From Pseudomonas sp. DY-1 (GTDB taxonomy: Bacteria; Pseudomonadota; Gammaproteobacteria; Pseudomonadales; Pseudomonadaceae), in contig NZ_CP032616.1 in NCBI RefSeq assembly GCF_003626975.1, positions 1,674,001 through 1,738,000 of the forward strand: DNA of 64,000 nucleotides, in the 5' to 3' direction. The stretch's first letter is position 1; each line of letters starts with the position of its first letter. A program made the translations under genes and the position numbers. This document shows positions 4,972 through 63,759 of this stretch, piece by piece. The notes under the pieces were generated by a model, which was not told the DNA's origin, ran no database searches, and saw only the letters and a program-made list of their open reading frames with translations.

Positions 4972-6846
4972 GTGAATATCTCTCGCTTGCTGTTCAGGGG
5001 CACTCCGCTTGTCGCCAGCAATGTCACAGGTGACAGCAACCAACAACCACTCGCCAACACCAACCGCCGTTCATTCCTCAAATGGTCCGCAGCCGCCAGC
5101 GCCCTGCCCTTGCTCCTCACCGAACGTGACAGTCACGCCAAGGACAGCGACACCTCCGATGTCGCCAGCCCGAAAACCACTCCGTGGAAGGAATTCCTGC
5201 CCAACCAGATGAGTCCGCTGAACCCGGTCAGCGTGCTGCATGGAGCGGACGGCGTGCAGGTGGTTCCGCCTTCCGTCACCGCCGACGCCGAGCACGGGGA
5301 ATGTGGCCGCAAACCACACCAGCGCTATGACCAACTGGGCATCGATCCGACGATGTATGAAATCAACGTGGTGGAGCGCCCGTGGAAGGCGCACCCGGAC
5401 CTGCCGGAAACCAAGGTCTGGAGCTACCGCGCCGCCGACTCCACCCCGGATAGCTTCAGCCCGATCATCTTCGCCCGCTATGGTCAGCCGGTACTCTGCC
5501 GCTTCCACTGCAAGTTGCCCAAGGACCATGTCGGCGTCGGCGTCCCGTACATCTCGGTGCACCTGCACAATCTGCACTGCCCTTCGGAAAGTGACGGTTT
5601 TCCCGGTGATTTCTTCAGTGCCCAGAAGCAGGGCCTGACCATGGACTTCAAGGGCGAGTACAAGGACCACTTCTACCCCAACGTATACGCCGGCCTGGAC
5701 GAGATGCAGAACGGCATCGGCGACTACCGCGAAGCGCTCGGCACGTTGTGGTTCCACGACCACACCTGGCAAGCCACCTCGCAGAACGTGGTGCGCGGGA
5801 TGTTCGGCTTCTACGTCATCTTCGACCACCTGGACTCCGGCAACGAGAAAGACCCGAGCCCGGAAGCGCTGCGCCTGCCCAGCTATCCGTACGACTACAT
5901 GCTGAGCTTCAACGACATGCGCTTCGATTCGAAGGGTCAGCTCGTCTTCGACCGTTTCAGTCCGGACGGCACGCTGGGCGACAAGATCCTGGTCAACGGC
6001 AAGATCGAGCCAGTGCTGCGCGTCGCGCGGCGCAAGTACCGACTGCGCCTGCTCAACGCCGGCCCGTCGCGCTTCTACGAGTTCTACCTGAACGACAGCA
6101 AGGGCAAGGCGCAGACCTTCACCTACATCGCCAATGACGGCAACCTGCTGCCCGCGCCCATCCGCAACATGGGCAAGGTTCATCTGGGCGTCGCTGAGCG
6201 CGCGGACCTGGTGGTGGATTTCTCCAAGTACCCCGTCGGCACCGAGCTGTTCCTTACCAACCGCCTGATCCAGGACACCACCAAGGGACCGGACAAGGTA
6301 GACGGTTCCGGCACCAAGGTGCTCAAGCTGCTGGTGGACCGTGACCCGCCGGAGCAGGACCTGAGCCAGGTGCCTGATGTCCTGCGGCCGCTACGCCCAC
6401 TGTGCGACGAGGAAATCGAACGGGCCAAGGTGCGCCGCTGGGTGTTCGACCGCAAGGGCGGCGAATGGGCGGTCAATGGCAAGCCGGAGAATATCCTCGA
6501 CACCAGCGCCAAGATCGACAAGGGCGAGTGCGAGATCTGGGAGCTGGTCAACGAAAGTGGCGGCTGGCAGCACCCGGTGCATATTCACTTCGAGGAAGGT
6601 CGCATCCTCAGCAAGACGGTCAACGGTGTGCCGGTGGCCATTCCGGAACACGAGCGAGGACGCAAGGACGTCTATGTGCTCGGCAAGAACGAGGCGGTTC
6701 GGGTGTTCCTGCGCTTCCGCGACTTCACCGGCAAGTACGTCATGCACTGCCACAACGTGATCCACGAGGACCACGGCATGATGATGCGCTGGGACATCGA
6801 GGACGACACGCCGCCCGAACCGCCAGCCGGGTGCAACGTCAGCTGA
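4972..6846 (+). CDS. Tat-exported multicopper oxidase
   Basis: A protein of 624 residues that should couple one-electron oxidation of a substrate to reduction of O2 to water in the periplasm or at the surface. The N-terminus has a twin-arginine signal, NRRSFLKWSAA at about residues 31-41, followed by a hydrophobic stretch. Copper ligands are visible: HLHNLHC (197-203), WFHDH (260-264), HPVHIHF (534-540) and HCHNVIHEDHGMM (592-604), which supplies the type 1 and trinuclear sites including the axial Met. The fold resembles CotA/bilirubin-oxidase-like enzymes more than CopA, as there is no Met-rich region. GTG at 4972 follows GGAGG. The SCO gene starts 37 bases downstream, so the two are probably one operon. 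The substrate (metal, phenol or other) is unknown. Confidence 0.9.
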   Translation: MNISRLLFRGTPLVASNVTGDSNQQPLANTNRRSFLKWSAAASALPLLLTERDSHAKDSDTSDVASPKTTPWKEFLPNQMSPLNPVSVLHGADGVQVVPPSVTADAEHGECGRKPHQRYDQLGIDPTMYEINVVERPWKAHPDLPETKVWSYRAADSTPDSFSPIIFARYGQPVLCRFHCKLPKDHVGVGVPYISVHLHNLHCPSESDGFPGDFFSAQKQGLTMDFKGEYKDHFYPNVYAGLDEMQNGIGDYREALGTLWFHDHTWQATSQNVVRGMFGFYVIFDHLDSGNEKDPSPEALRLPSYPYDYMLSFNDMRFDSKGQLVFDRFSPDGTLGDKILVNGKIEPVLRVARRKYRLRLLNAGPSRFYEFYLNDSKGKAQTFTYIANDGNLLPAPIRNMGKVHLGVAERADLVVDFSKYPVGTELFLTNRLIQDTTKGPDKVDGSGTKVLKLLVDRDPPEQDLSQVPDVLRPLRPLCDEEIERAKVRRWVFDRKGGEWAVNGKPENILDTSAKIDKGECEIWELVNESGGWQHPVHIHFEEGRILSKTVNGVPVAIPEHERGRKDVYVLGKNEAVRVFLRFRDFTGKYVMHCHNVIHEDHGMMMRWDIEDDTPPEPPAGCNVS

Positions 6847-6883
6847 GCCATAGCCAACCCTTGATCGTTACTGGAGATGCCAG

Positions 6884-7552
6884 ATGAACACTCGCAGAAA
6901 TCTGCTGTTCGGCGCCGGTGTGGCTGCCACAGGCCTGGCCGCGCTGGGCGCCGGCCTGGTAGATCGCAACTGGGCCGCCCCGGAACCCGAGTACGCCGAG
7001 GGCGACAGCTTCGGCGCCCGCTACTTCCCTAACCTCACCCTCTACACCCACCTCGGTAAGCGCGTGAAGCTCTATGACGATCTCATGCGCGACAAGGTGG
7101 TGACCTTCAACATGATGTACACGATGTGCGGCGGCCTCTGCCCCACCATGACCGCCAACCTGCGCGGCACCCAGAAGCTCCTGGGCGACCGGGCCGGGAA
7201 GAATGTCTTCATGTACTCCATCACCCTGCAGCCGGAGCTGGATACGCCGGAGATCCTCAGGGAATACGCCGAGTCCCACCATGTCGGTCCGGGCTGGCTA
7301 TTCCTCACCGGCGACCCGGCGGACCTGGAGAAGCTGCGCCGCAAGCTCGGCTTCTTCGACCCGGACCCGGTAGTCGATGCCGACCGCACCACCCATATCC
7401 GCATGGTGCGCATCGGCAACGACCGCTTCGATCAATGGACCATGGCCTCGGCCCGCTCACAGCCTGAGCAGTTGGTGGCGGCGATCAACATGGTGGACCG
7501 GTCGGTGGATTTCACCTCGCACAATGGGAAGGATGCGAGCCTGCCGGCTTGA
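6884..7552 (+). CDS. SCO1/SenC/PrrC family copper chaperone
   Basis: A thioredoxin-fold protein of 222 residues. The copper-binding motif is CGGLC (within MYTMCGGLCPTM, about residues 85-90) and the distal histidine is in DRTTHIRM (about 169). The N-terminus TRRNLLFGAGVAATG looks like a Tat or Tat-like signal or anchor. SCO proteins deliver copper to the CuA site of cytochrome oxidase or act as thiol reductants. Next to a multicopper oxidase and apart from any cox genes, this one may instead serve copper loading of that oxidase; this is inference from context. Start ATG at 6884 follows a GGAG site. Confidence 0.88.
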   Translation: MNTRRNLLFGAGVAATGLAALGAGLVDRNWAAPEPEYAEGDSFGARYFPNLTLYTHLGKRVKLYDDLMRDKVVTFNMMYTMCGGLCPTMTANLRGTQKLLGDRAGKNVFMYSITLQPELDTPEILREYAESHHVGPGWLFLTGDPADLEKLRRKLGFFDPDPVVDADRTTHIRMVRIGNDRFDQWTMASARSQPEQLVAAINMVDRSVDFTSHNGKDASLPA

Positions 7553-7692: not shown

Positions 7693-8442
7693 TCAGCTCA
7701 CCCGCCCCAGATTCACCACCAATGGCCAGCTCACCCGGCGGGTGCTCGCCGGGTCGCCCCAGGCCTGCGTGAATCGTTCGCGTAGCGGGTCGAGCGGGTT
7801 GTTGCCGTGGGCGTTCTGGTAGGTCGCCAGGGCCGACCAGCTTTCCAGGTAGCCCAGAAGCCGCGCCAGGTCCCATTGGGCATCCAGGTTGAAGGGCGGT
7901 ACCTCGATGCGCTCGAAAGGGAACGGCAGGGTGCGATAACCCTGCTCCACGTGCTTGCGCTCCTCGGCCCAGTAACTGCCGAGGATGTCGCTGTAGAAGT
8001 GACTGACCAGCGCATCCACTTCGGGCGTGATCGTCGTGAGGTTGTAGGAAATCACCGCAAGCAACCCGCCCGGCCGGCTGACCCTGCGGACTTCGGCATA
8101 GAAGCGTTCCAGGTCGAACCAGTGCAGCGCTTGCGCCACCAGGGTCAGGGAAACGCTGGCGTTGGCCAGCGAAGTCTGCTCCGCCGGCTCGCAGCGGTAG
8201 TCGATATTGGCGGCCTGCTCGGCCTTGGTCAGTTGCTGCGCGCTCACATCGGTTCCCACAACCCGCTGAAAATGCCGCGCAAGGTCGACGGTCGCCTGAC
8301 CGGAACCGCAGCCGCAATCCCAAGCCAGGGAAAGGTCCGGTGCCTGCTGGCTGAGCCAAGCGATCAGCGCGGGGTCGTAGGTGGGGCGACTGGCGCGGTA
8401 AGCGTCGGAATTTCTGGTGAAGAGTGCGCTTGTGTCGGACAT
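7693..8442 (-). CDS. Class I SAM-dependent methyltransferase
   Basis: A protein of 249 residues of the UbiE/Methyltransf_11 type. Motif I is WDCGCGSGQA (41-50), followed by the acidic residue of motif II in VVGTDVSAQQL, then QALHWFDLERFY and a post-motif RPGGLLAVISYN. The substrate is unknown; the N-terminal FTRNSDAYRASRPTYDP pattern is typical of small-molecule methyltransferases related to yeast Tmt1/TAM. ATG at 8442 starts at the conserved N-terminus, although the open frame extends further upstream. The gene is bracketed by two REP-like palindromes and has no operon partner. Confidence 0.88.
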   Translation of the reverse strand: MSDTSALFTRNSDAYRASRPTYDPALIAWLSQQAPDLSLAWDCGCGSGQATVDLARHFQRVVGTDVSAQQLTKAEQAANIDYRCEPAEQTSLANASVSLTLVAQALHWFDLERFYAEVRRVSRPGGLLAVISYNLTTITPEVDALVSHFYSDILGSYWAEERKHVEQGYRTLPFPFERIEVPPFNLDAQWDLARLLGYLESWSALATYQNAHGNNPLDPLRERFTQAWGDPASTRRVSWPLVVNLGRVS

Positions 8443-8510
8443 GGCAGGAAATCCGCTTCGGGTCGCAGGGATTGCCAGCATAGCGCGGGTGGAGCCGTGA
8501 GGCTGGCGTT

Positions 8511-8605
8511 GTAGGGGTGAACTCATTGGCCAAGGGCAACGCAGTTGCCCCCGAGACTCCACTCGGCAGACCTTCGGCCTGCTTGGCGATTGAAATCGCC
8601 CCTAC
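8511..8605. repeat. REP-like palindromic element, copy 3
   Basis: It begins GTAGGGGTGAACTCATTGGCC and ends GGCGATTGAAATCGCCCCTAC. The left arm is more diverged than in the other copies. It lies between the start of the methyltransferase and the end of the MalM-like gene, so it may end transcripts of the upstream five-gene operon. Confidence 0.7.
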
Positions 8606-8630: not shown

Positions 8631-9788
8631 TCATTTCACGATGGCCAATTCGAACGAACCCTGGTCACTGTGCTCATGCACCTGCATGCCCGCTTCGCTC
8701 AAGGCAAGGTCCTGCAGTGGGCGCTTGAAGGGTTTGTTGTCCAGGGTCTGCACGCTGCGGTCTTCGTCTGTGGTCAGCAGCAGTACGTAGCGTTCGCCCT
8801 GATTGGCGCGGACCTGCACCGTGCCTTCGATGAAGGCATAGCGGTACCAGGTCTCGCCGTGGAGCTGATAGACCGCATCGCTCACCAGCCGCGTCGGCCG
8901 CTTGGCTTCGTCGAGGAACAGCAGCGAGGGATAGACCACCTGGCGATTGGCGAAGCTGCGAATTCGCAGCCCGTAGCTGTGCTGGGAGCGCGGCAGCTTG
9001 AGAGCGCTGTAGTAGCTGCGCCCCATGGGAAAGTCGAAGCTGGGCGAGAGGTTGTTCAGCTCCTCGTAGCGCGGCTCTTCTACTGAAACCTCGGTGAAGG
9101 CGGCGTCCGCCAACTGACCGCAGCAGCGCTCCACCAGGCTCTGGTAAAGCGCCTCACCCTGCTCTTCGCTGCCCTCCAGCAAGGCCTTCATGGCGGCCGT
9201 GGGCTGGCCATCGAGGGATGGCAACAATGCGGCCTTGCGCTTGAATTCCATCTCGCGGGCTTCGGTATAGGCAATGGGGCCGGGAGGCGCGTCGTCCCCT
9301 TCAGTCTCCTTGCCCCGCGCAGGCACCGGCGAGTTATGTGTGCGGCCCTGCTCATCGACCCAGGTGAAGTACGCCGGGCCCTGTTCCGGCCGGGAGTATC
9401 CGCGACCTTCGAGGACCGCCGAGTCGACGTATTCCTCGGAGCGCTGGCCGTTGGGCAGCACGAAATCGCGCTGGCCCGAATCCACCTGCCCCGCCGCGTA
9501 GAAACTGTTCTGCAGATTGCCGCTGGCATCCACCCAGGTGAAATAGCGCCGCTTGCTCTCGCCTGCCTTGGCGCTGCCGGGCCACAGTGCGTCGTCGCCA
9601 TCCTTCAGGCGTGCCTGGTCGCTCTGCACGACTCGCCTGGCCGCCTGGCGCTGCTGCTCGCTGTAGCGGCTGTCGACGAAGGTGTTGTGGACGCGGCCCT
9701 GATCGTCGATCCAGGTCAGGTAGCGGCCACTGCTGGCGTGAGCGGTGCCGGCGAGAGTCATGGCGATAAGCAGGATGGGCACTTTCAT
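8631..9788 (-). CDS. MalM-like secreted protein with three TWxD repeats
   Basis: A protein of 385 residues with a signal peptide (about 1-19, ending AHA|SS). Its N-terminal half holds three copies of a DUF4124-like motif: YLTWIDDQGRVHN (23-35), YFTWVDASGNLQN (82-94) and YFTWVDEQGRTHN (140-152). The C-terminal half, about 235-385, resembles MalM (maltose operon periplasmic protein): it starts near SPSFDFPMGRSYYSALKLP and is rich in beta strands. It is the last gene of the five-gene operon and its ATG overlaps the stop of the FadL-like gene by one base, which implies translational coupling. A periplasmic or surface accessory role is inferred; the biochemical role is unknown. Confidence 0.8.
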   Translation of the reverse strand: MKVPILLIAMTLAGTAHASSGRYLTWIDDQGRVHNTFVDSRYSEQQRQAARRVVQSDQARLKDGDDALWPGSAKAGESKRRYFTWVDASGNLQNSFYAAGQVDSGQRDFVLPNGQRSEEYVDSAVLEGRGYSRPEQGPAYFTWVDEQGRTHNSPVPARGKETEGDDAPPGPIAYTEAREMEFKRKAALLPSLDGQPTAAMKALLEGSEEQGEALYQSLVERCCGQLADAAFTEVSVEEPRYEELNNLSPSFDFPMGRSYYSALKLPRSQHSYGLRIRSFANRQVVYPSLLFLDEAKRPTRLVSDAVYQLHGETWYRYAFIEGTVQVRANQGERYVLLLTTDEDRSVQTLDNKPFKRPLQDLALSEAGMQVHEHSDQGSFELAIVK

Positions 9789-11380
9789 CAGAAGGTCGTC
9801 TGGTAGGTCAGGGCCAGGATGTACGCCTTCACTGAAGTCGAGACGTTTTGTCCGGCGTAAGGGTTGTAGACCAGGTTGTCGATACCGGTGCAGTTGAGGC
9901 TGCAGCTAGTGTCGGCCTTGGTGCTCTGCCTGGTGGTGAAGTAGTTGAAGCCGATGTCGATGTTGGTGTCCTTGTCCCAGCGATAACCCAGGCCCAGGCC
10001 ATAGAGGTGGGCATCACCGATGGGTGCGAGCACGTCGGCCTTGTCGTCCGGAATGGCCGAGGGACGCCACTCATAGCCGGCGCGCACGGCTAGGCGATCG
10101 GTCCACTGGTACTGCACGCCGAGCGCCCAGCTCCAGGTATCGCGGTAGCCACGGTCGAGGATGATGCTGTGGCTGGTGGCATTGCCGCCGCCGAAGTTCT
10201 TGGCGATGCGCAGCAGGTCCAGCTCGCGGTCGAACTCGATCTCGAACTCGTTCCAGTCGCTGTAGCCGCTCCACTTAAGGTCGAAGTTGAACTGCCAGCG
10301 GTCGAATGGAACGATCTTGATGCCCGTGGAGAAGTTGTCCGGGTAGGTCATGTCCAATGACGCGTTGCCCATCTCTTCGTCGACGTTGCCGTAGGGGAAC
10401 AGCGGGCTCAGCACCTGGCCGAACAGCGAGGACTGCATACCGGACCAGAAGCCCTGCCAGTCCTTGCTGTAGTCGACCCGGTACTTGCCCTGCAGGTGCA
10501 TGCGCGCCTCGCTCTGGTAGGTGGCTCCCCAGGCGAACCAGTCGGTGGGCTCCCAGAGGAAGCCGATGTTCCAGGTCGGCGACAGCGACTGCTGCAGGTC
10601 CAGGTCCATGTTGGCCAGCGTGTCGAAGGGACCGATCTTGCCGCCGCAGACGTTGATGATTCCCGAGACGACTTCGCCCAGCCCGGGCAGGCAGAGGAAC
10701 TCGTTGAACAGCCGGGTCAGTCCGGTCAGGAAGCCCGGGTTGCGAAAGTCCTGGTTGAGCGCCATGGCCTGGTGGGAGAAACCAATGGACAGGCCCACCG
10801 CCAGCTCGTCATTCACCTGGTAGCCCACCGAGGGCGAGAAGTAGGTAATGCGCTGCAAGGCGACCTCACGCCCCTGGTAGCGCGCCGGATCGCTGTCCGA
10901 GTCCCGCGAGTAGCCCAGGGCCATGGGTGCGTAGACGTTGGTGGCGAAGGTGAACTTGGAGCCCGGCGGGTTGATAGACAGACCCGCCAGCGGTGCGAAC
11001 AGCACCGGCACTTCGGTCATGCCGCCCATGCCCGGCAGGTACATGGCTGGCGTCAGGGTGCGGCTACTGGAGTTCGCCACCGGGTCGTCGTCGTAGCCGA
11101 GGAAGCCGTAGTCCTCGGGGGCCTCGAACTTGGCGCGAATGTCCATCACCCCGGTGAGGAACTTCACCGTGGTCTGGCGGCCCTTGAGCTTGGTCAGTGC
11201 GGCCGGGTTGTAGTGCACCGCGTCGATCCCGGAGGAATCGGCGGTGATGGCGTTGGCCATGGCCATCGCCTTGGGGTTGCCGATGGTCAGGTCGTTGGCC
11301 AGTTGGGCCTGGGCCAGGCCCGCCCAGCAAAGGCCTACCCCGACGATCGCCCGCGCAAGCGGCGAAAGGTGCGTGCTCAT
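9788..11380 (-). CDS. OmpP1/FadL/TodX-family outer membrane protein
   Basis: A protein of 530 residues with a signal peptide (1-25, ending AQA). The mature N-terminus, QLANDLTIGNPKAMAMANA, and the following GIDAVHYNPAAL are the hatch-domain signature of FadL-like channels. Alternating beta-strand pattern runs to the last residue, ending in an aromatic (TYQTTF) as expected for BAM-assembled barrels. FadL relatives import hydrophobic molecules. Here the neighbours suggest a dedicated role with the C39 peptidase and the small secreted protein rather than general fatty acid uptake. Two cysteines near the C-terminus (SCSLNC) may form a disulfide in a loop. It follows the upstream barrel gene by 18 bases. 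Confidence 0.88.
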   Translation of the reverse strand: MSTHLSPLARAIVGVGLCWAGLAQAQLANDLTIGNPKAMAMANAITADSSGIDAVHYNPAALTKLKGRQTTVKFLTGVMDIRAKFEAPEDYGFLGYDDDPVANSSSRTLTPAMYLPGMGGMTEVPVLFAPLAGLSINPPGSKFTFATNVYAPMALGYSRDSDSDPARYQGREVALQRITYFSPSVGYQVNDELAVGLSIGFSHQAMALNQDFRNPGFLTGLTRLFNEFLCLPGLGEVVSGIINVCGGKIGPFDTLANMDLDLQQSLSPTWNIGFLWEPTDWFAWGATYQSEARMHLQGKYRVDYSKDWQGFWSGMQSSLFGQVLSPLFPYGNVDEEMGNASLDMTYPDNFSTGIKIVPFDRWQFNFDLKWSGYSDWNEFEIEFDRELDLLRIAKNFGGGNATSHSIILDRGYRDTWSWALGVQYQWTDRLAVRAGYEWRPSAIPDDKADVLAPIGDAHLYGLGLGYRWDKDTNIDIGFNYFTTRQSTKADTSCSLNCTGIDNLVYNPYAGQNVSTSVKAYILALTYQTTF

Positions 11381-11398
11381 GAGGTGATCTCTCGCCGG

Positions 11399-12403
11399 TT
11401 ACTGGGCCTTGAGGCCTTTGATGTCGAGGGGTACGGAAAGCCCCAGGAGTACGTCCGGCGAGTCCTCGGTCATGCCGAAGCCGGCGTTGACGTTGATGAT
11501 GTAGTCCGGCGACGTTCGCAGGCCAAGGGAGAAGTTCATGATCGAACTGGTCTGTTCGGTTCCCTCCAGGTTGGCGGTCTGGAACTTGTATGTCGGCTTG
11601 GTCGTGTAGGCCATCTGGTACGAGGTGGCCAGGGACACGTCGTAGGACAGCGCATAGGCGAAGCCCATGCTGAAGTTGAGGGTGTCACCCGGTTCCACGT
11701 CTTCCAGGATGCGCCCGCCGCGCATCTGGTGAATGTCATGCACCGGCATGTTGTAGGTGTATCCCACCGAGCCGAACAGCACGACCGGGTCGATCACGTA
11801 GGACATGTTGGCGCCTACGCCCAGGCTGTAGTAGCCGTTGCCGGTGGACAGGTCGTTTTCGGAGTTGATGTCGTAAGGGCTTTCCCCGGTGGGCAGGCCC
11901 AGGGTGGCGAAGAGCGTGGTGACCGGCCGGCCACGGGTCGAGGCCCAGGGCTGCCAGCGCAGGGAGGCAGAGATGTCACCGAGGCTGTAGACGTTCAGGT
12001 CGCGCTCAGTGTCGTACTTGGCGACGAAGGGCAGGCGCACGCTGAAGGTCAGGTTGTCCCACACCCCGTAGTCGAAGGTGAAGGAGTTGGTGAAGGTGTG
12101 TTGGGCCTCGCTCTGGCTGAGCACGCTGTAGACGTTGCTGCCGGTGCGGAAGGTTTCGATCTGGGTATCGCGCACCAGCGAGTAGTCGAAACCGTAGGTG
12201 AGCGTGCGCTCGCCTTTCTTCAACAGCGTGTAGCTTTTCTCGGAGGCCTGGAACACTTCTTCCAGCGCCTTGGCGCTGTCGGCGTCGTCGTCCTTCTTGC
12301 TCAGCGCGTCACGCGCCTCGTCCACCGAGCTCTCCTCGGCCTGCAGCGGCAGACTGGTACAGAGCACCAGCATGGCCAGCCATGCGTATTCCCTTGGTCC
12401 CAT
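11399..12403 (-). CDS. FapF-like outer membrane beta-barrel with N-terminal helical segment
   Basis: A protein of 334 residues. A signal peptide ends near SLPLQAEE. A charged helical, probably coiled-coil segment (about 25-65) is followed by LLKKGERTLTYGFDYS, the entry to a barrel of the meta-pathway phenol-degradation transporter type (PF13557-like). The chain ends in short strands without a terminal aromatic. A helical plug plus this barrel type is the known architecture of FapF, the channel that exports functional amyloid in Pseudomonas; overall similarity was judged by eye only. Order in the operon (after a C39-like peptidase) also matches Fap logic. Confidence 0.75.
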   Translation of the reverse strand: MGPREYAWLAMLVLCTSLPLQAEESSVDEARDALSKKDDDADSAKALEEVFQASEKSYTLLKKGERTLTYGFDYSLVRDTQIETFRTGSNVYSVLSQSEAQHTFTNSFTFDYGVWDNLTFSVRLPFVAKYDTERDLNVYSLGDISASLRWQPWASTRGRPVTTLFATLGLPTGESPYDINSENDLSTGNGYYSLGVGANMSYVIDPVVLFGSVGYTYNMPVHDIHQMRGGRILEDVEPGDTLNFSMGFAYALSYDVSLATSYQMAYTTKPTYKFQTANLEGTEQTSSIMNFSLGLRTSPDYIINVNAGFGMTEDSPDVLLGLSVPLDIKGLKAQ

Positions 12404-12440
12404 GGTGCTATCCCCAGGTCTTTCTTGTTATGAGCGGGTG

Positions 12441-13202
12441 TCACTTGCGGCGGATGTAGCGGATATCGCCCCCCGAACCCAGTTCGTCGATTTCGTTCTG
12501 GGTGAACTTGGTGATCTGCGGAAACTCCTTGAACGCCAATAGGCTGACGATGCGATCGTCCACCAGGCGCAGGTCGCGCTCGGTGAGGGCCATGGCGTTC
12601 TGCGGTTCGTTGCCCGAGGGGAAGATCACGAAGAGGACGTTCTGGTCCCAGATTTCCTCGAAACGGGCACGGGTGAAACTGATGTTGCCGAGTGCGGGGT
12701 CCGCGACGAATACGTGGTCGTTGTAGACGTCGCGCACCACCACGAAATGCTTGAAGCCGCCGTAGTGGATCGGAACGATGGCCGGATGCTCCAGGGCGTC
12801 GAGGTCGCCGAATTCGGCACGGAATCCGCCACTCTTGTAGCCCAGCGCGCCGACGAAGCGCTTCATGTCCAGCAGCGAAAAGCCACGGCGCTCGACGATC
12901 TTGTCGGCTTCGCCGTAGCGCAGCAGGCCTTCCATCACCTGGCGTTCTTCCAGGTTCCGGCCCAGGTAGTAGTCCAGCAGGCTGGTCAGTGCCGCGGAGC
13001 CGCAGCTGTAGTCGTAGGCCTGACGGATGACGTTGCGAAATTGCAGCTGGCTCATCGGCTCGACCACGGCCGTTTCACGGTACGGACCATTGGGCGAGAG
13101 CGGCTGGCTGATGTTTACCGCACCTTGCGGTTGCGGCTTGGTGTCCACCGTCTGGGTGAAGCCGAACAGACCGAGCAAACTGCCAATCAGGATTTCGATC
13201 AT
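12441..13202 (-). CDS. C39-like cysteine peptidase family protein
   Basis: A protein of 253 residues. A hydrophobic N-terminal segment (about 1-16) could be a signal or anchor. The peptidase domain has the catalytic Cys in YDYSCGSAALTSLL (Cys67), His in GGFKHFVVV (His152) and Asp in FVADPALG (Asp168), in the order and spacing of C39 peptidases. Unlike bacteriocin exporters it is not fused to an ABC transporter. FapD, in the amyloid export locus, has the same stand-alone form. It may process or clear the small secreted protein encoded just upstream; this is inferred from context. It is the second gene of the operon, 89 bases after the small gene, with a stable hairpin between. Confidence 0.85.
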   Translation of the reverse strand: MIEILIGSLLGLFGFTQTVDTKPQPQGAVNISQPLSPNGPYRETAVVEPMSQLQFRNVIRQAYDYSCGSAALTSLLDYYLGRNLEERQVMEGLLRYGEADKIVERRGFSLLDMKRFVGALGYKSGGFRAEFGDLDALEHPAIVPIHYGGFKHFVVVRDVYNDHVFVADPALGNISFTRARFEEIWDQNVLFVIFPSGNEPQNAMALTERDLRLVDDRIVSLLAFKEFPQITKFTQNEIDELGSGGDIRYIRRK

Positions 13203-13233
13203 TGCCGTTCCGACTACTCGACTCTTTTCTTGG

Positions 13234-13269
13234 GGAAAGGCCCCGCCGACCAGGTCGGCGAGGCTTTCC
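13234..13269 (-). promoter_or_regulatory. Strong hairpin between first and second operon genes
   Basis: An inverted repeat of about 17 bases (GGAAAGGCCCCGCCGACC against GGTCGGCGAGGCTTTCC) nearly fills the gap between the small secreted protein gene and the peptidase gene. No T-run follows on the minus strand, so it is more likely a 3' stabilising or partial-attenuation structure than a full terminator. This would allow the first gene to be expressed above the rest. Confidence 0.7.
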
Positions 13270-13291
13270 GGATTACAGGATCAACGAGCTG

Positions 13292-13744
13292 TCAGTGACC
13301 CCAGACCTTGAGGGTGGAGCCGGACATGTTCATGTTGTTGATGGCCAGGGAACCGATGCTGGCGGCGCTGGAGTCGCCGACGCGGATGGCGCCGACCGAG
13401 AGCTGGCCGGTGATGGACGGCAGGCTGATCTGCAGCTTGTCGCTGCCACCGGCGCCACCGTCGATCACGTCGATCTTCAGCGGGTCGCTGTCGAGGATGT
13501 CGAAGCCGGTGAAGGACACGGTTTCCAGGCGCAGGGTACCGGCGGTGGTGGTGCTGCCGGAGGTTTCGGAGTCGGTGTAGACGATGCTGCCGATGGAGCC
13601 GTTGAAGCTACCGGAGATGCTGATGCCGTCCTGACCAGTCACACCGGACAGAGCGGAATCGTCCATGGCCTTGAGGTCGGCCTGGGCCATGAACGGAGCA
13701 GCGAGCACAGCAGCGGCCAGAGCCAGTTGTTTGAAGCTTTTCAT
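13292..13744 (-). CDS. Small secreted Ser/Gly-rich protein, FilA/DUF6160-like
   Basis: A protein of 150 residues with a clear Sec signal peptide (KSFKQLALAAAVLAAPFMAQA). The mature N-terminus carries the motif MDDSALSGVTGQDGISI, which I recognise from DUF6160/FilA-like proteins encoded beside Fil genes. The rest is low in charge, rich in Ser, Gly, Thr and Ile, has no cysteine and alternates polar and hydrophobic residues, as expected for an all-beta structural or filament subunit; it ends KVWGH. ATG at 13744 is preferred because GGAG lies nine bases upstream; TTG at 13759 would overlap that site. It is the first gene of the five-gene operon and followed by a hairpin. A surface filament or fibre subunit is inferred, not shown. 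Confidence 0.8.
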   Translation of the reverse strand: MKSFKQLALAAAVLAAPFMAQADLKAMDDSALSGVTGQDGISISGSFNGSIGSIVYTDSETSGSTTTAGTLRLETVSFTGFDILDSDPLKIDVIDGGAGGSDKLQISLPSITGQLSVGAIRVGDSSAASIGSLAINNMNMSGSTLKVWGH

Positions 13745-13975
13745 TCTTTTTATCTCCAAAGTTCACAGGTGGGTTACCCCCGGGGCCTGCCGTCGACTCC
13801 TGTCATCGGCAGTTGGACCGGCTGACGCCGATCTCCTGGCCGGACGCTGCTTCCTTAATCGCATCCGGCGAGGGTTCGTGAAGCACCATGCTTCTCGACC
13901 TGGGAACAAAACTACTTAGCCCCTCCCCCGCTGCCAGCCCATCCAAGGGATGGAGGGGCTGTGGGGTTCCTCACC
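13745..13975 (-). promoter_or_regulatory. Upstream region of the five-gene operon
   Basis: These 231 bases lie between the last regulator gene and the small secreted protein gene, all on the minus strand, and should hold the operon promoter and the binding site of the adjacent LuxR-type regulators. There is an imperfect hairpin at about 13919-13960 (CCATCC/GGATGG core within AGCCCCTCC/GGAGGGGCT), which could end regulator transcripts. I could not name a -35/-10 pair or operator with confidence. Confidence 0.4.
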
Positions 13976-16687
13976 TCAGGCCTCGCTCAGGAGGCCCAGA
14001 CTCTTGCCCTTCAACACGGCCTGGGTACGGCTGCGCACCCCGAGCTTGGCGAACAGGTTGTGCAGATGCCATTTGATGGTGGCCTCTGACAGGTGCACCG
14101 CCTGGGCAATGTCGCGGTTGGAAAGACCTGCCGCGACATACCGCAGGATTTCGCGCTCTCGATGGCTAACATCTTGATTTTCATCGAAAGTTTCCGGATC
14201 CACGGAGAGCCGGCGGCATTGCTCGCGCAGGCTTTCGGCCACACCTTGCCAGGCGCCGGCACGCTTGGGTTCGGCGGCGCGCCAGGCATCCCAGAGCGGC
14301 AACAGCCAGAGCGCATCATCCTGGAGCAACCGGCGGTAGCCACGATTCCAGGCCTCTTCCAAGGTGTTCTGGAACAGGACGAAGGCCTTCTCGCTGTTAC
14401 CTTTGCGCCAGTACGCCACAGAAAGTAACAGCGACAGCCGCAGGCGACGATCGCGCTGGTGTTCGTCCTGTTGCCGCGCGAGGCAATTCTCCAGGCTCGA
14501 TTGGGCACGCTCGGGGCGGCGCTCGGTGAGTGCCAGGCGTGCCTCGGTCAGGGCCAGCACCGTGTGCGCATCGGAGTAACGCGCCAGCGGCAGCACGGCC
14601 AGGTGTTGCTGCAGTTGCAGGCAGATGCGCTCGGCTTCGTTGGGCCGCCGCAGCCAGAGCAGGAACTGCACCTTGCAGGCCATTCCATGGGCGAAGACCC
14701 GCTCGTAGCCCGCACCCTGCAGGCCAGCCAACCATTCGTCGAGCTGGGCCAGCGCCTGCTCCGGTTCACCGGCAAAGAATCGCGCCCGCGCCATCACCAA
14801 CTGACCACGGCTTATCAATTCCACCGGAGTCGCTACATCTCGCCAGGTAGTCGCCAGGGGCAGTTCGGCAAGGATTGCGGCCTGGCGGTCCTGTTCGTAA
14901 AGGAGGTCGGCGTAGGCCAGGGCCAGCGGCCCACCTACCCGGCTGCGTCGCCCGAACACCCGTTCCACACGGGCTCGGGCGGTTTCGGCGATGGCCCGGC
15001 CGCGTTCCAGTTCGCCGCTTTCCTTGCAGATCAGCGCCTCGATCAGGCTGGTCATGACATGCAGGTATTCGCTGTCCACCAGTTTCAGGTTGTCACGGGC
15101 TATCGCGATGGCCTTCGCGGCTTCGCCGAATTCGCCCATCAGCGCATAGGCCGCCGCCTGGACGCAGGCCAGGCTGGCACGGAACACCGGCTGGTTGTCC
15201 GGCACCATGGCGAGCCACTGGCGGGCGACCTTGAGGCAGGCTTCCAGCTTGTCCTGATAGAGCATGACCAGGGCCTTGAGCACCTGGGAGGCCGCCAGCA
15301 GTTCGCCAAGGCCGAAATGGATCACCTTGCCGCGCCCTTGCAGCAGTCGCGTGCTGACTTCCTCGATCAGCGCTTCGGACTCCGCGAATCGCTGCTCGAA
15401 CGCCAACTGCCAGGCATAGAAGATCTGGAACACCGGGTGCTCGCGAATGACCTCGGCGGGCACGCCCTTGAGCATCGAAAGAATGCCGTAGACCCGGTTG
15501 CCGGCGATCAGCCGTGCGCCCTGGCGCTCCAGCATCGCGGCGGCGAAGGCGAAATCGCGGCCACGCAGGGCGTACTTGATGGCGCGGTCCGGCATGTCGT
15601 GGCCTTCGCACCAGCGCGCCGCCGCATGCAGCAGGGTTGCCGGATCCGTCTGGCGCGCCAGGCGACCCTGGAGGAACTCGGCAAACAGATGGTGATAGCG
15701 GAACCACTCGCCCTGCTCGTCCAGGGGAATGATGAAGAGCTGCTCGCGCTGCAGCCGCATCAGCATGTCGAGCCCATCGCGGCGGCCGGTCAGGGCATTG
15801 CACAGGTCGGCGCAGAAGTCGTCGAGCACCGAGGTCTGTTCGAGGAACTGCTGCAAGGGTTGCGGCAGGCTTTCGAGCACGTCCTCGGTCAGGTAGTCGG
15901 CGATGTTGCGCTCGGTGCCGCTGAGGCTGGCGAGGAAGGCAGCACGATCGGGATGCCGGGCCAGCGCCAGGCTCGCCAGGTGCAGCGCGGTGATCCAGCC
16001 CTCGGTGCGGGTGTGCAGCAGGCGCACTTCATCGCTGGCCAGCGTCAACTGGCGCACCTCGCGGAAGTAGGCCTCGGTTTCTTCGAGGGTCAGGCGCAGG
16101 TCTTCGGCTTTCAGCAACAGCGATTCCGCCTCGCTGAACAACAGCCGTGGTGTGAAGCGGGTGCTGCTGACCAGGTGGACATTGGCCGGCAGGTTCTCGA
16201 TCAGGTAGCGCGCCCCCTGGTCGAGGGCTACGTGGCGGATGCGGTGGAAGTCATCGAGCATCAGGTAGAGGTCGCCCTCGATGCGTTTCAGATCGCCGAC
16301 GAACGCGTCGATCACCGCCTCGATGGGCCAGTTCACATCACCCTGCAGAAGGCCAACGGTATTGCCACCAAAGCCGGGCAATGCGGCATCCACCGCGGCG
16401 ACCAGGTACTGCAGCAGGCGTTGCGGCTCGCTGTCGGCCTCATCGCAGGACAGCCAGGCGACATGTGCGCCATCGATCTGGAGGTGCTGGCGGAACAGGC
16501 TGAGCACGGTGCTCTTGCCGAATCCGGCCGGCGCACTGAGCACCAGTACGCGGCGGCTGCGGGCGCCCTGCAGGCGCTGGATCAACGCTCGGCGCGGCAG
16601 TACCGGGCGGCCACCGGCATCGGCCGGGAACAGCTTGGTGCGCAGGAGGGGAATCTGGTGCGGGCGTGACAGGCAGAGGTCGGTCAT
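13976..16687 (-). CDS. MalT-like (LAL) LuxR-family transcriptional activator, second of pair
   Basis: A protein of 903 residues. The N-terminal STAND-type ATPase has Walker A SAPAGFGKST (51-60) and a Walker B-like LYLMLDDFHR. A long TPR-like helical middle follows. The C-terminal LuxR helix-turn-helix (LSHREREILRYVAAGLSNRD... about 835-895) ends with VRSRTQAVLKGKSLGLL. Such proteins act as signal- and ATP-dependent activators that oligomerise at target promoters. Its ATG overlaps the stop of the upstream paralogue by four bases (ATGA), so the two are co-translated. The downstream five-gene operon on the same strand is the obvious target; the inducer is unknown. Confidence 0.93.
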   Translation of the reverse strand: MTDLCLSRPHQIPLLRTKLFPADAGGRPVLPRRALIQRLQGARSRRVLVLSAPAGFGKSTVLSLFRQHLQIDGAHVAWLSCDEADSEPQRLLQYLVAAVDAALPGFGGNTVGLLQGDVNWPIEAVIDAFVGDLKRIEGDLYLMLDDFHRIRHVALDQGARYLIENLPANVHLVSSTRFTPRLLFSEAESLLLKAEDLRLTLEETEAYFREVRQLTLASDEVRLLHTRTEGWITALHLASLALARHPDRAAFLASLSGTERNIADYLTEDVLESLPQPLQQFLEQTSVLDDFCADLCNALTGRRDGLDMLMRLQREQLFIIPLDEQGEWFRYHHLFAEFLQGRLARQTDPATLLHAAARWCEGHDMPDRAIKYALRGRDFAFAAAMLERQGARLIAGNRVYGILSMLKGVPAEVIREHPVFQIFYAWQLAFEQRFAESEALIEEVSTRLLQGRGKVIHFGLGELLAASQVLKALVMLYQDKLEACLKVARQWLAMVPDNQPVFRASLACVQAAAYALMGEFGEAAKAIAIARDNLKLVDSEYLHVMTSLIEALICKESGELERGRAIAETARARVERVFGRRSRVGGPLALAYADLLYEQDRQAAILAELPLATTWRDVATPVELISRGQLVMARARFFAGEPEQALAQLDEWLAGLQGAGYERVFAHGMACKVQFLLWLRRPNEAERICLQLQQHLAVLPLARYSDAHTVLALTEARLALTERRPERAQSSLENCLARQQDEHQRDRRLRLSLLLSVAYWRKGNSEKAFVLFQNTLEEAWNRGYRRLLQDDALWLLPLWDAWRAAEPKRAGAWQGVAESLREQCRRLSVDPETFDENQDVSHREREILRYVAAGLSNRDIAQAVHLSEATIKWHLHNLFAKLGVRSRTQAVLKGKSLGLLSEA

Positions 16688-19461
16688 GATTCGAGCAGCC
16701 CCAGCTCGCGGGCACGCCGGATCGCTTGGGTCCGGTTACGCACCTTGAGCTTTTCGTAGATGTTGTGCAGGTGCCATTTGACAGTCCCCAGCGCCAAGGC
16801 CAGCTGCTGTCCGATCTCCTCGTTGGACATGCCCTTGGCGGCCAGACAGACCACCTCGCGCTCACGGTCGGTGAGTCCTTCTTCCAGCACATCCAGGGAT
16901 TTGCGTGCGTCGTTGCCGGGCCAGGACGCCAGCAGGTCGCGGATGAAACCTTGCAGCGCGGGGTGGCGTTCGGCCGCTTCCAGTTGCTGGAGCAGTTGGC
17001 GGATGGCCTCGCCCTCCTCTATGAACAGGCTGCGCACGCCCTCCCGCTCGGCACAGAGCAGGCACTGCACCAATAGGCTCTGGGCGCGCTCCTGATAACC
17101 CAGGCGCTGGTAACTGAGGGCGGCCAGCAGGTCCAGGCGCAGCCGTTGCAGGCCATGCCAGTTGGGCTGGAGCTTGCCGCGCAATTGGGTGATCTCGTGC
17201 AGGGCTTCGCTGAAGTGCCCACGGGCTTGCTGCAGGCGCACGCGGATCAGCCCCTGTACCCAGAGCGCCGAATTGGCGCCGTGCTGGGTACCGCCGCTGG
17301 CCAGCTTGTTCCAATCCACGCCCTTGAAGCGCTGTTCGGCCCGCTTGATGCGATCGGTGCCAGGCTCCTGGAGCGTCAGCGAGATTTCCTCGGCCACCGC
17401 TCGCGCATAGAAGCGCCAGGACTGGTTGCGTGCGGCCAGGTTCTGCATCAGCACCAGGGTCGCCTGGGCTTCCTTGGGCTTGTCCTGCATGCGCTGGATG
17501 CGCGCAAGGAAGAGCATGCCCTGGGCATAGATGTCGATCGGCCGGATGACGTCGATATGGGTCAGCGCGCTGCCGAGGCGTTCCTCGAGGCCGTCGAGGC
17601 GCCCCTGCTGGTAGGCGATCAGGGATTCGACTATGACCGGCAGCGCCATCGCACGGGACTTTTGCCCCAGGTGCGGCATGACTTGCGCATGCATCTGATC
17701 GAAGAGCATCTGCGCCTGCCGCACCTGGCCCTGTTCCAGGGCCAGGAGGATCTCGACGTTGGCCAGCTGCATGTCCAGGTAGCGGCCTTCGAGGAAGTGG
17801 TTGCGCTGCTGGGCCAGGGACAGCAGGCGGCGGGCCTGGTCCGGCTGGGCGAGGACCGCCAGGGCCATGGCGCCAATCACCAGGATGGCCACTTCGAGGA
17901 AGGCCTGGTTGCGCCCGAGTTGCGCCTCAACCCGGCGGGCGATGGTGACGCAGAGTTCGAGGTCGTCCTTCTGCAGGGCGAGGGCAGCCTTTACCGCCAG
18001 GGTCGCCAGGTACTTGTCGCTGATCTGCGCCTCGGCGCGGGTTCCGCCCCAGCGGGCCAGCAACTCGTCGAGCATCTGGATGGCTTCCGGCAGTGCCATC
18101 TCGGTCGCACGGTTCCAGACATCCGCCAGTACCAGGGTCGGGTAACGCGCGGCAATATCGTCCGGCACCTTCTGCCGCCAGCGGTAGATCTTGTTCAACT
18201 GGCCGCGGTTGATCAGTTCCAGGCCGCAGCCATCCACCAGCGCCGCGAGCATGTCCGGGTCTTCGGCTAGGCTCGCGTGCTCGATGGCGAGGTTCTGCAT
18301 GTGATGGTTGGTGAACCAGAGACTGGCGTTGAAGTGCAGTTGCTTCAGGCGCTCCGGATCACGGGTCTTGAGACGGCTGCGCAGGAAGTCGGCGAACAGG
18401 TGGTGGAAGCGGTACCACTGCCGCTCACGATCCAGCGGCAGCAGGAACAGCTGCATGGTTTCCAGCCGTTCCAGCAACGCCTGGCCATCCTGGCGCCCGG
18501 TCAGTGCGTTGGCCAGGTCACCACTGAGCTGGCTGGCGACACCGAGGGCCAGCAAGGCGTCCTGCAGATCGGCAGACAGCTGCTCGAAAACGCTGGCCAG
18601 CAGGTATTGACCTACCGTGGCCTGGTCACTGCCCAGGCACTCCATCTGCTCAGTGGCTTGCGGTTGGTGGCGGAGCCACAGGCTCGCCAGCTGGACACCA
18701 ATCGCCCACCCTTCGGTATGGCTGTGCAGCGCGGCCAGTACTGCATCATCCAGTTGCAGGCCGGTACGGGCCAGGTAGTCGCGGGTTTCCTCGACGGACA
18801 GGCGCAACTCGTCGAGACCGATCTCCAGCAGCCAGCCCTTGGCCCGCAAGGTGGCCAGACTCAGCGGCGGCAGGGAGCGGCTGCCGACGGCCAGGGAGAA
18901 GCTGGCAGGGGCCAGGCGCACCAGGCGGCCAAGTGCGGAAAAGAGTTCGGGGTCTTTCAACAGGTGCAGGTCATCCAGCACCAGCAGGAGCGGACCATTG
19001 TGGCGGGCGAGGTCCACCAGCAGGCTTTCGAGCACGGCGTTGACCGGGACCTGCATGGTGTTATGCAGGTAGCCGCGGGCGTAGTCGCCAACGCCGGGCA
19101 CGGCTTCGCCGAGGGTCTTGATCAGTTGCTGGAAGAATCGCGCGGGATCGTCGTCCTCGGCCTCCAGGGAGAACCAGGCCACTGCGCTACCGGCGGTGCG
19201 GCGTTGCTCGGCCAGGGCCGCAAGGGCGGTGGTCTTGCCGAACCCGGCAGGTGCCGAGAACAGCAGGAGGCGAGCATGAGGATGGGCGGCCAGTGCCGCC
19301 TGAACCTGGGGTCTTGGCAGATAATCGGCAGATGCCTGAGGTGTCACGAGTTTGGAGCGCTGGCGGCTACCGGCTGCGGGGTTGAGAACTGCGTCCACTG
19401 CCTGAATCCCTGTGTCGTTATCGTTGTGGTTCGGAGGTACATCTCCGTGGGATTGGTACAT
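16684..19461 (-). CDS. MalT-like (LAL) LuxR-family transcriptional activator, first of pair
   Basis: A protein of 925 residues with the same plan as its downstream neighbour: a short N-terminal extension, Walker A SAPAGFGKTT (69-78), Walker B LLLVLDDLHLL, a TPR-like middle and a C-terminal LuxR helix-turn-helix beginning LTDREREVVCLAAKGMSNEE. The two look like diverged tandem duplicates. ATG at 19461 is the first in frame; the spacing from a weak AGGAAA is long, so a start slightly downstream is possible. pabB lies divergently, 102 bases away. P. aeruginosa has a similar adjacent pair next to pabB, by memory. Confidence 0.92.
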   Translation of the reverse strand: MYQSHGDVPPNHNDNDTGIQAVDAVLNPAAGSRQRSKLVTPQASADYLPRPQVQAALAAHPHARLLLFSAPAGFGKTTALAALAEQRRTAGSAVAWFSLEAEDDDPARFFQQLIKTLGEAVPGVGDYARGYLHNTMQVPVNAVLESLLVDLARHNGPLLLVLDDLHLLKDPELFSALGRLVRLAPASFSLAVGSRSLPPLSLATLRAKGWLLEIGLDELRLSVEETRDYLARTGLQLDDAVLAALHSHTEGWAIGVQLASLWLRHQPQATEQMECLGSDQATVGQYLLASVFEQLSADLQDALLALGVASQLSGDLANALTGRQDGQALLERLETMQLFLLPLDRERQWYRFHHLFADFLRSRLKTRDPERLKQLHFNASLWFTNHHMQNLAIEHASLAEDPDMLAALVDGCGLELINRGQLNKIYRWRQKVPDDIAARYPTLVLADVWNRATEMALPEAIQMLDELLARWGGTRAEAQISDKYLATLAVKAALALQKDDLELCVTIARRVEAQLGRNQAFLEVAILVIGAMALAVLAQPDQARRLLSLAQQRNHFLEGRYLDMQLANVEILLALEQGQVRQAQMLFDQMHAQVMPHLGQKSRAMALPVIVESLIAYQQGRLDGLEERLGSALTHIDVIRPIDIYAQGMLFLARIQRMQDKPKEAQATLVLMQNLAARNQSWRFYARAVAEEISLTLQEPGTDRIKRAEQRFKGVDWNKLASGGTQHGANSALWVQGLIRVRLQQARGHFSEALHEITQLRGKLQPNWHGLQRLRLDLLAALSYQRLGYQERAQSLLVQCLLCAEREGVRSLFIEEGEAIRQLLQQLEAAERHPALQGFIRDLLASWPGNDARKSLDVLEEGLTDREREVVCLAAKGMSNEEIGQQLALALGTVKWHLHNIYEKLKVRNRTQAIRRARELGLLES

Positions 19462-63267: not shown

Positions 63268-63343
<76 letters not shown>

Positions 63344-63356
63344 ATTTGACACAAAG

Positions 63357-63432
63357 TGGCGTCCCCTAGGGGACTCGAACCCCTGTTACCGCCGTGAAAG
63401 GGCGGTGTCCTAGGCCACTAGACGAAGGGGAC
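63357..63432 (-). tRNA. tRNA-Glu (TTC)
   Basis: A 76-base tRNA with acceptor GTCCCCT/AGGGGAC, encoded CCA, anticodon TTC in CCTTTCACG, and T-arm AGGGGTTCGAGTCCCCT. Confidence 0.98.
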
Positions 63433-63438
63433 TGAAAT

Positions 63439-63514
<76 letters not shown>

Positions 63515-63602
63515 ATGCAACTTTTACAGCCTGCACCTTTCGGTGCGTCCCTCAACCCTTATCGGGCTTGGGCAAGCAGGGCATTGGCTCTGCTTTTGAA
63601 TC

Positions 63603-63678
<76 letters not shown>

Positions 63679-63683
63679 AAATA

Positions 63684-63759
63684 TGGCGTCCCCTAGGGGA
63701 CTCGAACCCCTGTTACCGCCGTGAAAGGGCGGTGTCCTAGGCCACTAGACGAAGGGGAC
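63684..63759 (-). tRNA. tRNA-Glu (TTC), second copy
   Basis: Identical by eye to the tRNA-Glu at 63357-63432. It is the first tRNA of the transcript, closest to the promoter at 63839-63867. Confidence 0.98.

Follow-up and report, generated by a model that had tools for sequence, protein, structure and literature searches.

The Fil genes of Acinetobacter (FilA–FilF) are called a type III pilus in Acinetobacter papers and are described there as raised in biofilm or pellicle: PMC8792954 reports an increase of FilC and FilF in biofilm, and PMC7273844 and PMC3203104 report FilF in biofilm and pellicle. In Pseudomonas, the Fap system uses a stand-alone C39 peptidase, FapD, and a plugged barrel, FapF. 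Here, we describe a locus related to both in Pseudomonas sp. DY-1, located in a 64,000-nucleotide stretch (the window) of its 5.9-Mb genome (contig NZ_CP032616.1, positions 1,674,001 to 1,738,000). Seven minus-strand genes run from position 19461 down to 8631, encoding two MalT-type activators (LAL1 and LAL2), a subunit, a C39 peptidase, a FapF-type barrel, a FadL-type barrel and a MalM-like protein (Table 1), in agreement with the gene set, order, strand and coordinates given in a preliminary description of this DNA. The nearest relatives of the window's proteins are those of Pseudomonas. The locus probably encodes a Fil-type surface-filament system, in which the peptidase (FilB) trims a leader after a Gly-Gln (GQ) pair in the periplasm, the FapF-type barrel (FilC) exports the trimmed protein and the filament polymerises.

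A Fil-type locus with Fap-related parts

Judged by its sequence, the locus belongs with the Fil loci, named in Acinetobacter, where the NCBIfam models FilA, FilB, FilC and FilD (model type 'exception') carry the label "putative pilus system". It has the Acinetobacter gene order A-B-C-D-E, with the E place assigned by position, homologous FilB, FilC and FilD proteins and the same FilA leader motif. In contrast to Acinetobacter, all four window proteins fall below the curated NCBI cut-offs (FilA 59/220, FilB 285/475, FilC 338/630 and FilD 524/970 bits), the subunit has 150 residues instead of about 330, the protein in the FilE place matches MalM and not FilE_C (PF22881), and a LAL pair stands upstream. 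The FilB cut-off was passed by no genome in any of our three genome draws, taken at the level of family, class and order (0/148, 0/321 and 0/214, respectively).

A scan of GTDB genomes with a 15-sequence FilB alignment returned at least 575 relatives, and all locus counts refer to the best 80 of these. The genes filB, filC and filD are contiguous, in this order and on the same strand in 80/80 loci, as they are in the window, which argues that the arrangement is not due to chance. A MalM-like gene follows filD in 75 of the 80, seven of them scoring below 70 bits; among the remaining five, one locus ends at a contig end (L173) and four have an unmatched protein at this place (L193, L196, L199 and L202). 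A filA-type gene lies within about 2.2 kb upstream of filB in 45/80 loci, and all five genes from filA through the MalM-like gene occur together in 41. The FadL-like and MalM-like genes are core parts of the system and not the added functions for which they had been taken. A lack of co-occurrence across genomes, which would have spoken against one export system, was not observed. The hosts include Marinobacter, Alcanivorax and Thalassolituus.

At the fifth place the matches were mixed. The window protein contains a MalM domain and three DUF4124-like repeats seen by eye, of which Pfam finds one. A profile grown from it gave weak matches to FilE of three Acinetobacter-type loci (L198, L200 and L201) and missed three others (L196, L199 and L202). 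In one Acinetobacter locus, L200, FilE occupies the fifth place and FilF comes next (L200:14898-16871, 657 aa, with a lipoprotein-like start, ..LTGCGGES.., seen by eye), whereas the gene after the MalM-like gene in the window encodes a methyltransferase. FilF had no match in the window's genome, and the control genomes gave none either.

The outer-membrane barrel is related to that of Fap. When a 37-sequence FilC profile was compared with the PDB, FapF alone matched at E 10 or better, with 1.6e-28 as the lowest value. Similarly, FapF was the best fold match of the FilC AlphaFold model (Foldseek E 3.9e-20, TM 0.71/0.81; next family E 2e-10), a model with a mean pLDDT of 76.8 and a poor N-terminus, in which the predicted plug helix, at about residues 40–54, is of low confidence. 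The earlier suggestion of a Fap- or Fil-like system that exports the 150-residue protein as a fibre is upheld, with a barrel that is FapF-like by sequence and model and a subunit that matches a solved filament (see below). Unlike in Fap, however, the locus has different subunits with a clear leader, as well as FadL-type and MalM-type partners. The window barrel lies under the FapF equivalog cut-off (72/700 bits), and matches to the FilC model in the family draw comprised 39 of at least 287 bits, from the same 39 genomes as for FilB, and then none above 89. For the FilB model the corresponding gap was at least 279 versus at most 118 bits (class draw, 211 versus 130; order draw, 161 versus 125, with an 88-bit fragment in G629 left out of the count), and the split between FilB-type and FapD-like proteins was chosen after this gap was visible. 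A FapD-like match is also present in 14 of the 39 FilB genomes. Fap subunit families did not appear in family and NCBIfam scans of the window proteins, although no search aimed at repeats was made. By its parts the system is a variant of Fap-type export, and by its clients (the proteins that it would handle) and their leader it is a branch of its own. The earlier view of it as a distinct system needs correcting, as it is no peculiarity of this genome: loci of the Fil kind range from Pseudomonas to Marinobacter and Acinetobacter.

A C39-type leader and the 9xfv filament

The preliminary description had pointed to Cys67, His152 and Asp168 of the C39-like peptidase. These residues proved invariant in the 15-sequence FilB alignment, in which some rows are partial, together with Gln61, which completes the active site. 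In the PDB, FilB comes closest to 6mpz, the double-glycine protease LahT (E 6.7e-5). The leader register of C39 peptidases is described as L(-12)xxxE(-8)L(-7)xxxxG(-2)G(-1), where -7 and -12 sit in a hydrophobic knot, -4 sets specificity and a helix extends from -10 to -4 (PMC6959990, PMC6363468).

The N-terminus of the window subunit reads MKSFKQLALAAAVLAAPFMAQA-DLKAMDDSALSGVTGQ-DGISISG, that is, a leader of 16 residues ending in V-T-G-Q behind a Sec signal. To describe this leader across clients, we used 107 proteins, namely 59 DUF6160 open reading frames from draw genomes with a locus and 48 from the 80-locus set (leader profile E <0.02); the DUF6160 loci of the order draw and of 24 FilB genomes chosen from the 80 loci are not part of these counts, and some clients are near-identical, leaving 66 distinct 16-mers. 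A GQ junction is present in 103 of the 107, the other four having GA, GE, GE and AQ. One of L, I, V, M or F occupies -12 in 65/66 distinct leaders, -7 in 66/66 and -4 in 48/66, as well as -15, a position that has a role in ComA leaders, in 66/66, compared to 13/660 at the remaining positions from -16 to -3. In 62/66, position -17 or -16 holds an A of the kind seen at signal-peptidase sites, the residue two places ahead of it being A, V, G, S, L, T, I or N. In 34 distinct Burkholderiales-type leaders, -12, -7 and -4 are each hydrophobic in 34/34. FilB and its presumed clients resemble the PCAT/LahT and ComA systems in peptidase family, catalytic residues, the hydrophobic -12, -7 and -4 positions and Gly at -2, and differ from them in that FilB is stand-alone and not in an ABC transporter and probably acts in the periplasm, and in that the leader has a Sec signal before it and Gln at -1.

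The junction after GQ coincides with the start of a solved structure. The pilus-like filament 9xfv, from a karst cave (Guilin), is built from a subunit homologous to ours, and its first residue, 38, comes directly after the GQ of a matching 210-residue precursor. It matches the Burkholderiales protein P0241 and also P0244 from Ideonella. Among precursors of this kind (120 listed, 117 examined), 114/114 with a pattern-found junction have GQ directly before it. The C-terminus of 9xfv, ..WAH, likewise resembles the ..WGH of the window subunit (FilA), which thus appears to share its mature N- and C-terminal ends with the 9xfv family, the ends of FilA itself being predicted. The FilA model is all-beta, of moderate confidence, and residues 36–38 form its only stretch under pLDDT 50. 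A soluble periplasmic enzyme, the alternative identity against which the subunit had to be checked, was rejected, since the best fold match was the filament and all others had E of at least 2.1.

Three elements were absent from the first reading of this DNA and are added here: the leader of C39 type, its junction at GQ, and the unlinked clients described below. In the literature searched, we found no account of a Fil mechanism, leader, cleavage site, unlinked clients or link to 9xfv, one paper that names DUF6160 and no paper on 9xfv; the record lines examined for 9xfv name no assembly machine. DUF6160, a family with no function assigned so far, would gain a role as client leader, a structure without a known builder would be tied to a conserved operon, and a 16-residue motif would predict surface cargo in many Pseudomonas, Marinobacter, Alcanivorax and Acinetobacter genomes. 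Periplasmic C39 processing also becomes directly testable, because a FapD relative now has a candidate Gly-Gln site, a register and a fibre that starts there.

Clients outside the locus

The window's genome contains six DUF6160 genes, which are the subunit, a singleton and a four-gene cluster, the latter two more than 2 Mb away. The singleton (L068:6280-6837; C2, about 3.956 Mb) ends in ..FRVWGH, compared to ..LKVWGH in FilA. The cluster (L067:8596-13606; C2, about 5.20 Mb) comprises four consecutive genes of 348, about 342, 202 and 774 aa, one of them with GA replacing GQ, and its products are possibly tip, base or adhesin clients. A second site of this kind seems to be common, because 20 of the 24 chosen FilB genomes (not G471, G473, G487 and G489) have a DUF6160 frame of at least 680 residues with another within about 3 kb. 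DUF6160 is present in 24/24 of these genomes, including nine in which filB lacks a neighbouring filA but 3 to 12 DUF6160 matches occur.

Two genomes of the class draw, G285 and G397, each have 15 dispersed matches at E <=0.001, 10 of them over the cut-off. In a BLAST comparison that used neither low-complexity filtering nor composition correction and covered matches with a locus (seven of G285's, six of G397's and three of G157's), the leaders of the seven G285 clients were 55% identical on average, whereas 0/21 pairs of their mature parts were similar; similar mature pairs numbered 1/15 in G397, 1/3 in G157 and 2/15 in our own genome. Most of the examined G285 and G397 clients have nothing in common beyond the signal and the leader ending in GQ.

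We then compared the distribution of FilB-type proteins, defined as the group above the score gap, with that of DUF6160 at E <=0.001. In the family draw (n=148), all 39 FilB-type genomes have DUF6160 over the cut-off and one further genome, G086, has DUF6160 alone, below the cut-off. The same six genomes appear on both lists in the class draw (n=321), and the order draw (n=214) contains 26 FilB-type and 27 DUF6160 genomes, 25 of them both. Fisher's p was 5e-35, 7e-13 and 3e-29 for family, class and order, respectively, without correction for kinship. Overall, 63 distinct genomes have both and four are discordant (G086, G492, G544 and G545). In the family draw, 31 genomes match C39 and lack a FilB-type protein, and DUF6160 occurs in one of these (G086), indicating that the pairing is with FilB and not with stand-alone C39 peptidases at large. 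Of 14 control genomes, two matched the FilB model, below its cut-off, and none matched DUF6160.

A broader interpretation, somewhat more likely than not, is that FilB together with the V/S-x-G-Q leader makes up a general sorting pathway of the Gram-negative envelope, an N-terminal counterpart of sortase- and exosortase-type sorting. A detachable tag behind the Sec signal would address many unlinked and unrelated proteins to one periplasmic C39 peptidase and one FapF-type channel, and this pathway would supply the missing assembly machine of 9xfv.

Proposed route, alternatives and neighbouring genes

In the route that we propose, clients would cross the inner membrane by Sec and signal peptidase would expose the 16-residue double-glycine-type leader, which periplasmic FilB would dock via the hydrophobic -15, -12, -7 and -4 positions and cut after Gly-Gln. 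The trimmed client would exit through FilC, the FapF-type barrel, and exported clients would polymerise into a filament like 9xfv, pilus-like and all-beta, with the free N-terminal strand presumably taking part in assembly outside. FilD and the MalM-like protein may assist at the outer membrane, perhaps by anchoring or hand-over, a guess based on the weak match of FilD to the PorV family (E 3.6e-7, under cut-off), and the two LAL proteins would turn the operon on. The route draws on the gene set, leader register, co-occurrence, FapF relation and filament start after GQ, all of which are supported by our results.

Several observations weigh against it. Inspection by eye shows no classical signal peptide on FilB, whose placement on the periplasmic side is borrowed from FapD, and FilB residue K114 falls opposite the PCAT1 groove residue I59 (author's counting, phmmer alignment), a pairing that alone is no evidence for a shared groove. 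P1 is Gln, in contrast to Gly, Ala or Ser in the C39 leaders described in the literature consulted. Since the profiles used to collect clients cover the leader, part of its conservation is built in; the same does not hold for how well it fits the C39 register and the 9xfv start. Mature parts are not always unrelated, with 7/15 pairs similar in G154. One genome, G545, has a FilB-type protein without DUF6160, and the reverse holds in G492 (75% complete), G544 and G086, the latter two below the DUF6160 cut-off, as is G157, which was counted as having both. Because filA and filB are linked in genomes of the Pseudomonas type, the draw in part repeats this linkage. A P. aeruginosa PAO1 paper also lists a DUF6160 protein. 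Lastly, filB is only presumed in the 9xfv organism: relatives of the 9xfv subunit, sought in 369 class genomes, matched only in G000 and G154, a scan that did not reach Ideonella-type genomes. The 15 residues before residue 38 of 9xfv could also be unmodelled, not cut.

This last point can be extended to a reading in which the start at 38 reflects only disorder of residues 23–37, with no GQ trimming of the filament subunit. This would fit if the chain sequence used comprises the modelled residues only and not the full deposited sequence; however, disorder would have to end at the very residue after GQ, a pair found directly before every pattern-found junction, and the only poorly predicted stretch of the FilA model is the three residues at this site, making the reading quite unlikely. 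A different account would keep the leader mainly as an address label for the FilC channel, with FilB a chaperone or acting on another target and the leader removed late or by another protease. Curli subunits have an N-terminal targeting segment that such a label would resemble, and co-occurrence of leader and machine fits it too. According to the 2017 Fap paper, the target of FapD is unclear, with FapE favoured by the authors, Fap proteins are without canonical C39 sites and some C39-like domains function without cutting, but the same source reports that FapD C38A abolishes FapC secretion (PMC5557850). Given also the invariant FilB active site, the match of the leader to the C39 docking register and a filament chain that begins exactly after GQ, we regard this account as unlikely and retain trimming by FilB.

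Two further alternatives were considered. LAL proteins include alkane regulators, and together with a FadL-like barrel that matches Toluene_X/FadL closely and hosts such as Marinobacter, Alcanivorax and Thalassolituus they would suit a hydrocarbon or lipid uptake operon with the fibre as a secondary coat; yet the FadL-like gene stands beside filB-filC in every one of the 80 loci, including the 48 without LAL genes, and this explanation seems decidedly improbable. A functional amyloid fibre of the Fap type is suggested by the kinship of FilB and FilC with FapD and FapF, and is highly improbable in view of the Fap subunit models left unmatched in the family and NCBIfam scans, the match of the subunit to a pilus-like filament and its all-beta model of moderate confidence.

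Table 1 Features of the fil-type locus, in window coordinates
Feature	Positions	Strand	Evidence
LAL1, MalT-type LuxR-family activator, 925 aa	16684-19461	-	GerE 9.2e-18, TPR_MalT 3.2e-15
LAL2, second MalT-type activator, 903 aa	13976-16687	-	GerE 1.2e-18, TPR_MalT 6.4e-15
filA-type subunit precursor, 150 aa, DUF6160	13292-13744	-	PF19657 E 2.7e-27; homologue of 9xfv subunit
Predicted Sec signal peptide of subunit, residues 1-22 (..MAQA)	13679-13744	-	by eye
Putative C39-type leader, subunit residues 23-38 DLKAMDDSALSGVTGQ, proposed cut Q38/D39	13631-13678	-	register; 9xfv start after GQ
Subunit-peptidase intergenic hairpin	13203-13291	-	RNAfold
filB-type C39 peptidase, 253 aa, Q61 C67 H152 D168	12441-13202	-	Peptidase_C39 E 1.1e-19; FilB model E 6.4e-85
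filC-type FapF-like outer-membrane barrel with N-terminal helix (low confidence)	11399-12403	-	FilC model E 7.5e-101; FapF model E 3e-20
filD-type FadL/OMPP1 barrel, 530 aa	9788-11380	-	Toluene_X/FadL E 4.5e-105; FilD model E 3.9e-157
filE-position MalM-like protein, 385 aa	8631-9788	-	MalM E 9.1e-29; DUF4124 E 4e-7

The genes are closely packed. LAL1 and LAL2 overlap by 4 nt and the MalM-like gene overlaps the FadL-like gene by 1 nt, and the gaps measure 231 nt between LAL2 and the subunit, 89 nt between subunit and C39 peptidase, 37 nt from there to the barrel and 18 nt between the barrel and the FadL-like gene. The subunit gene starts with ATG at 13744, and a TTG at 13759 is also open. Four signal peptides in the locus were called by eye.

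Of the 24 Pseudomonas-type loci, 23 have a LAL pair before filA and one (L134) is cut by a contig end, and within the 80 loci such a pair occurs in Pseudomonas-type loci only; eight Marinobacter loci have a single LAL gene on the opposite strand. With LAL genes in 32 loci and none in 48, they were rejected as a core component. LAL1 matches the MalT model with E 7.5e-102, under the cut-off. The filA-filB gap contains a GC-rich hairpin of -36.2 kcal/mol (RNAfold, no shuffle control), and a perfect stem of at least seven pairs, varying in position, occurs in this gap in 16/24 Pseudomonas-type loci. It may act as a brake that keeps machine levels under subunit levels. A simple scan found neither a T-run terminator between filA and filB nor a sigma-70 promoter upstream of filA.

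The S-adenosylmethionine (SAM) methyltransferase gene that follows the MalM-like gene (7693-8562) has a counterpart in only 1/80 loci; it was thus rejected as a core component and placed outside the system. Elsewhere in the window, a plus-strand multicopper oxidase with a Tat signal is followed by a SCO1/SenC protein (4972-7552), and five consecutive tRNA genes, for Gly and Glu, are found at 63268-63759.

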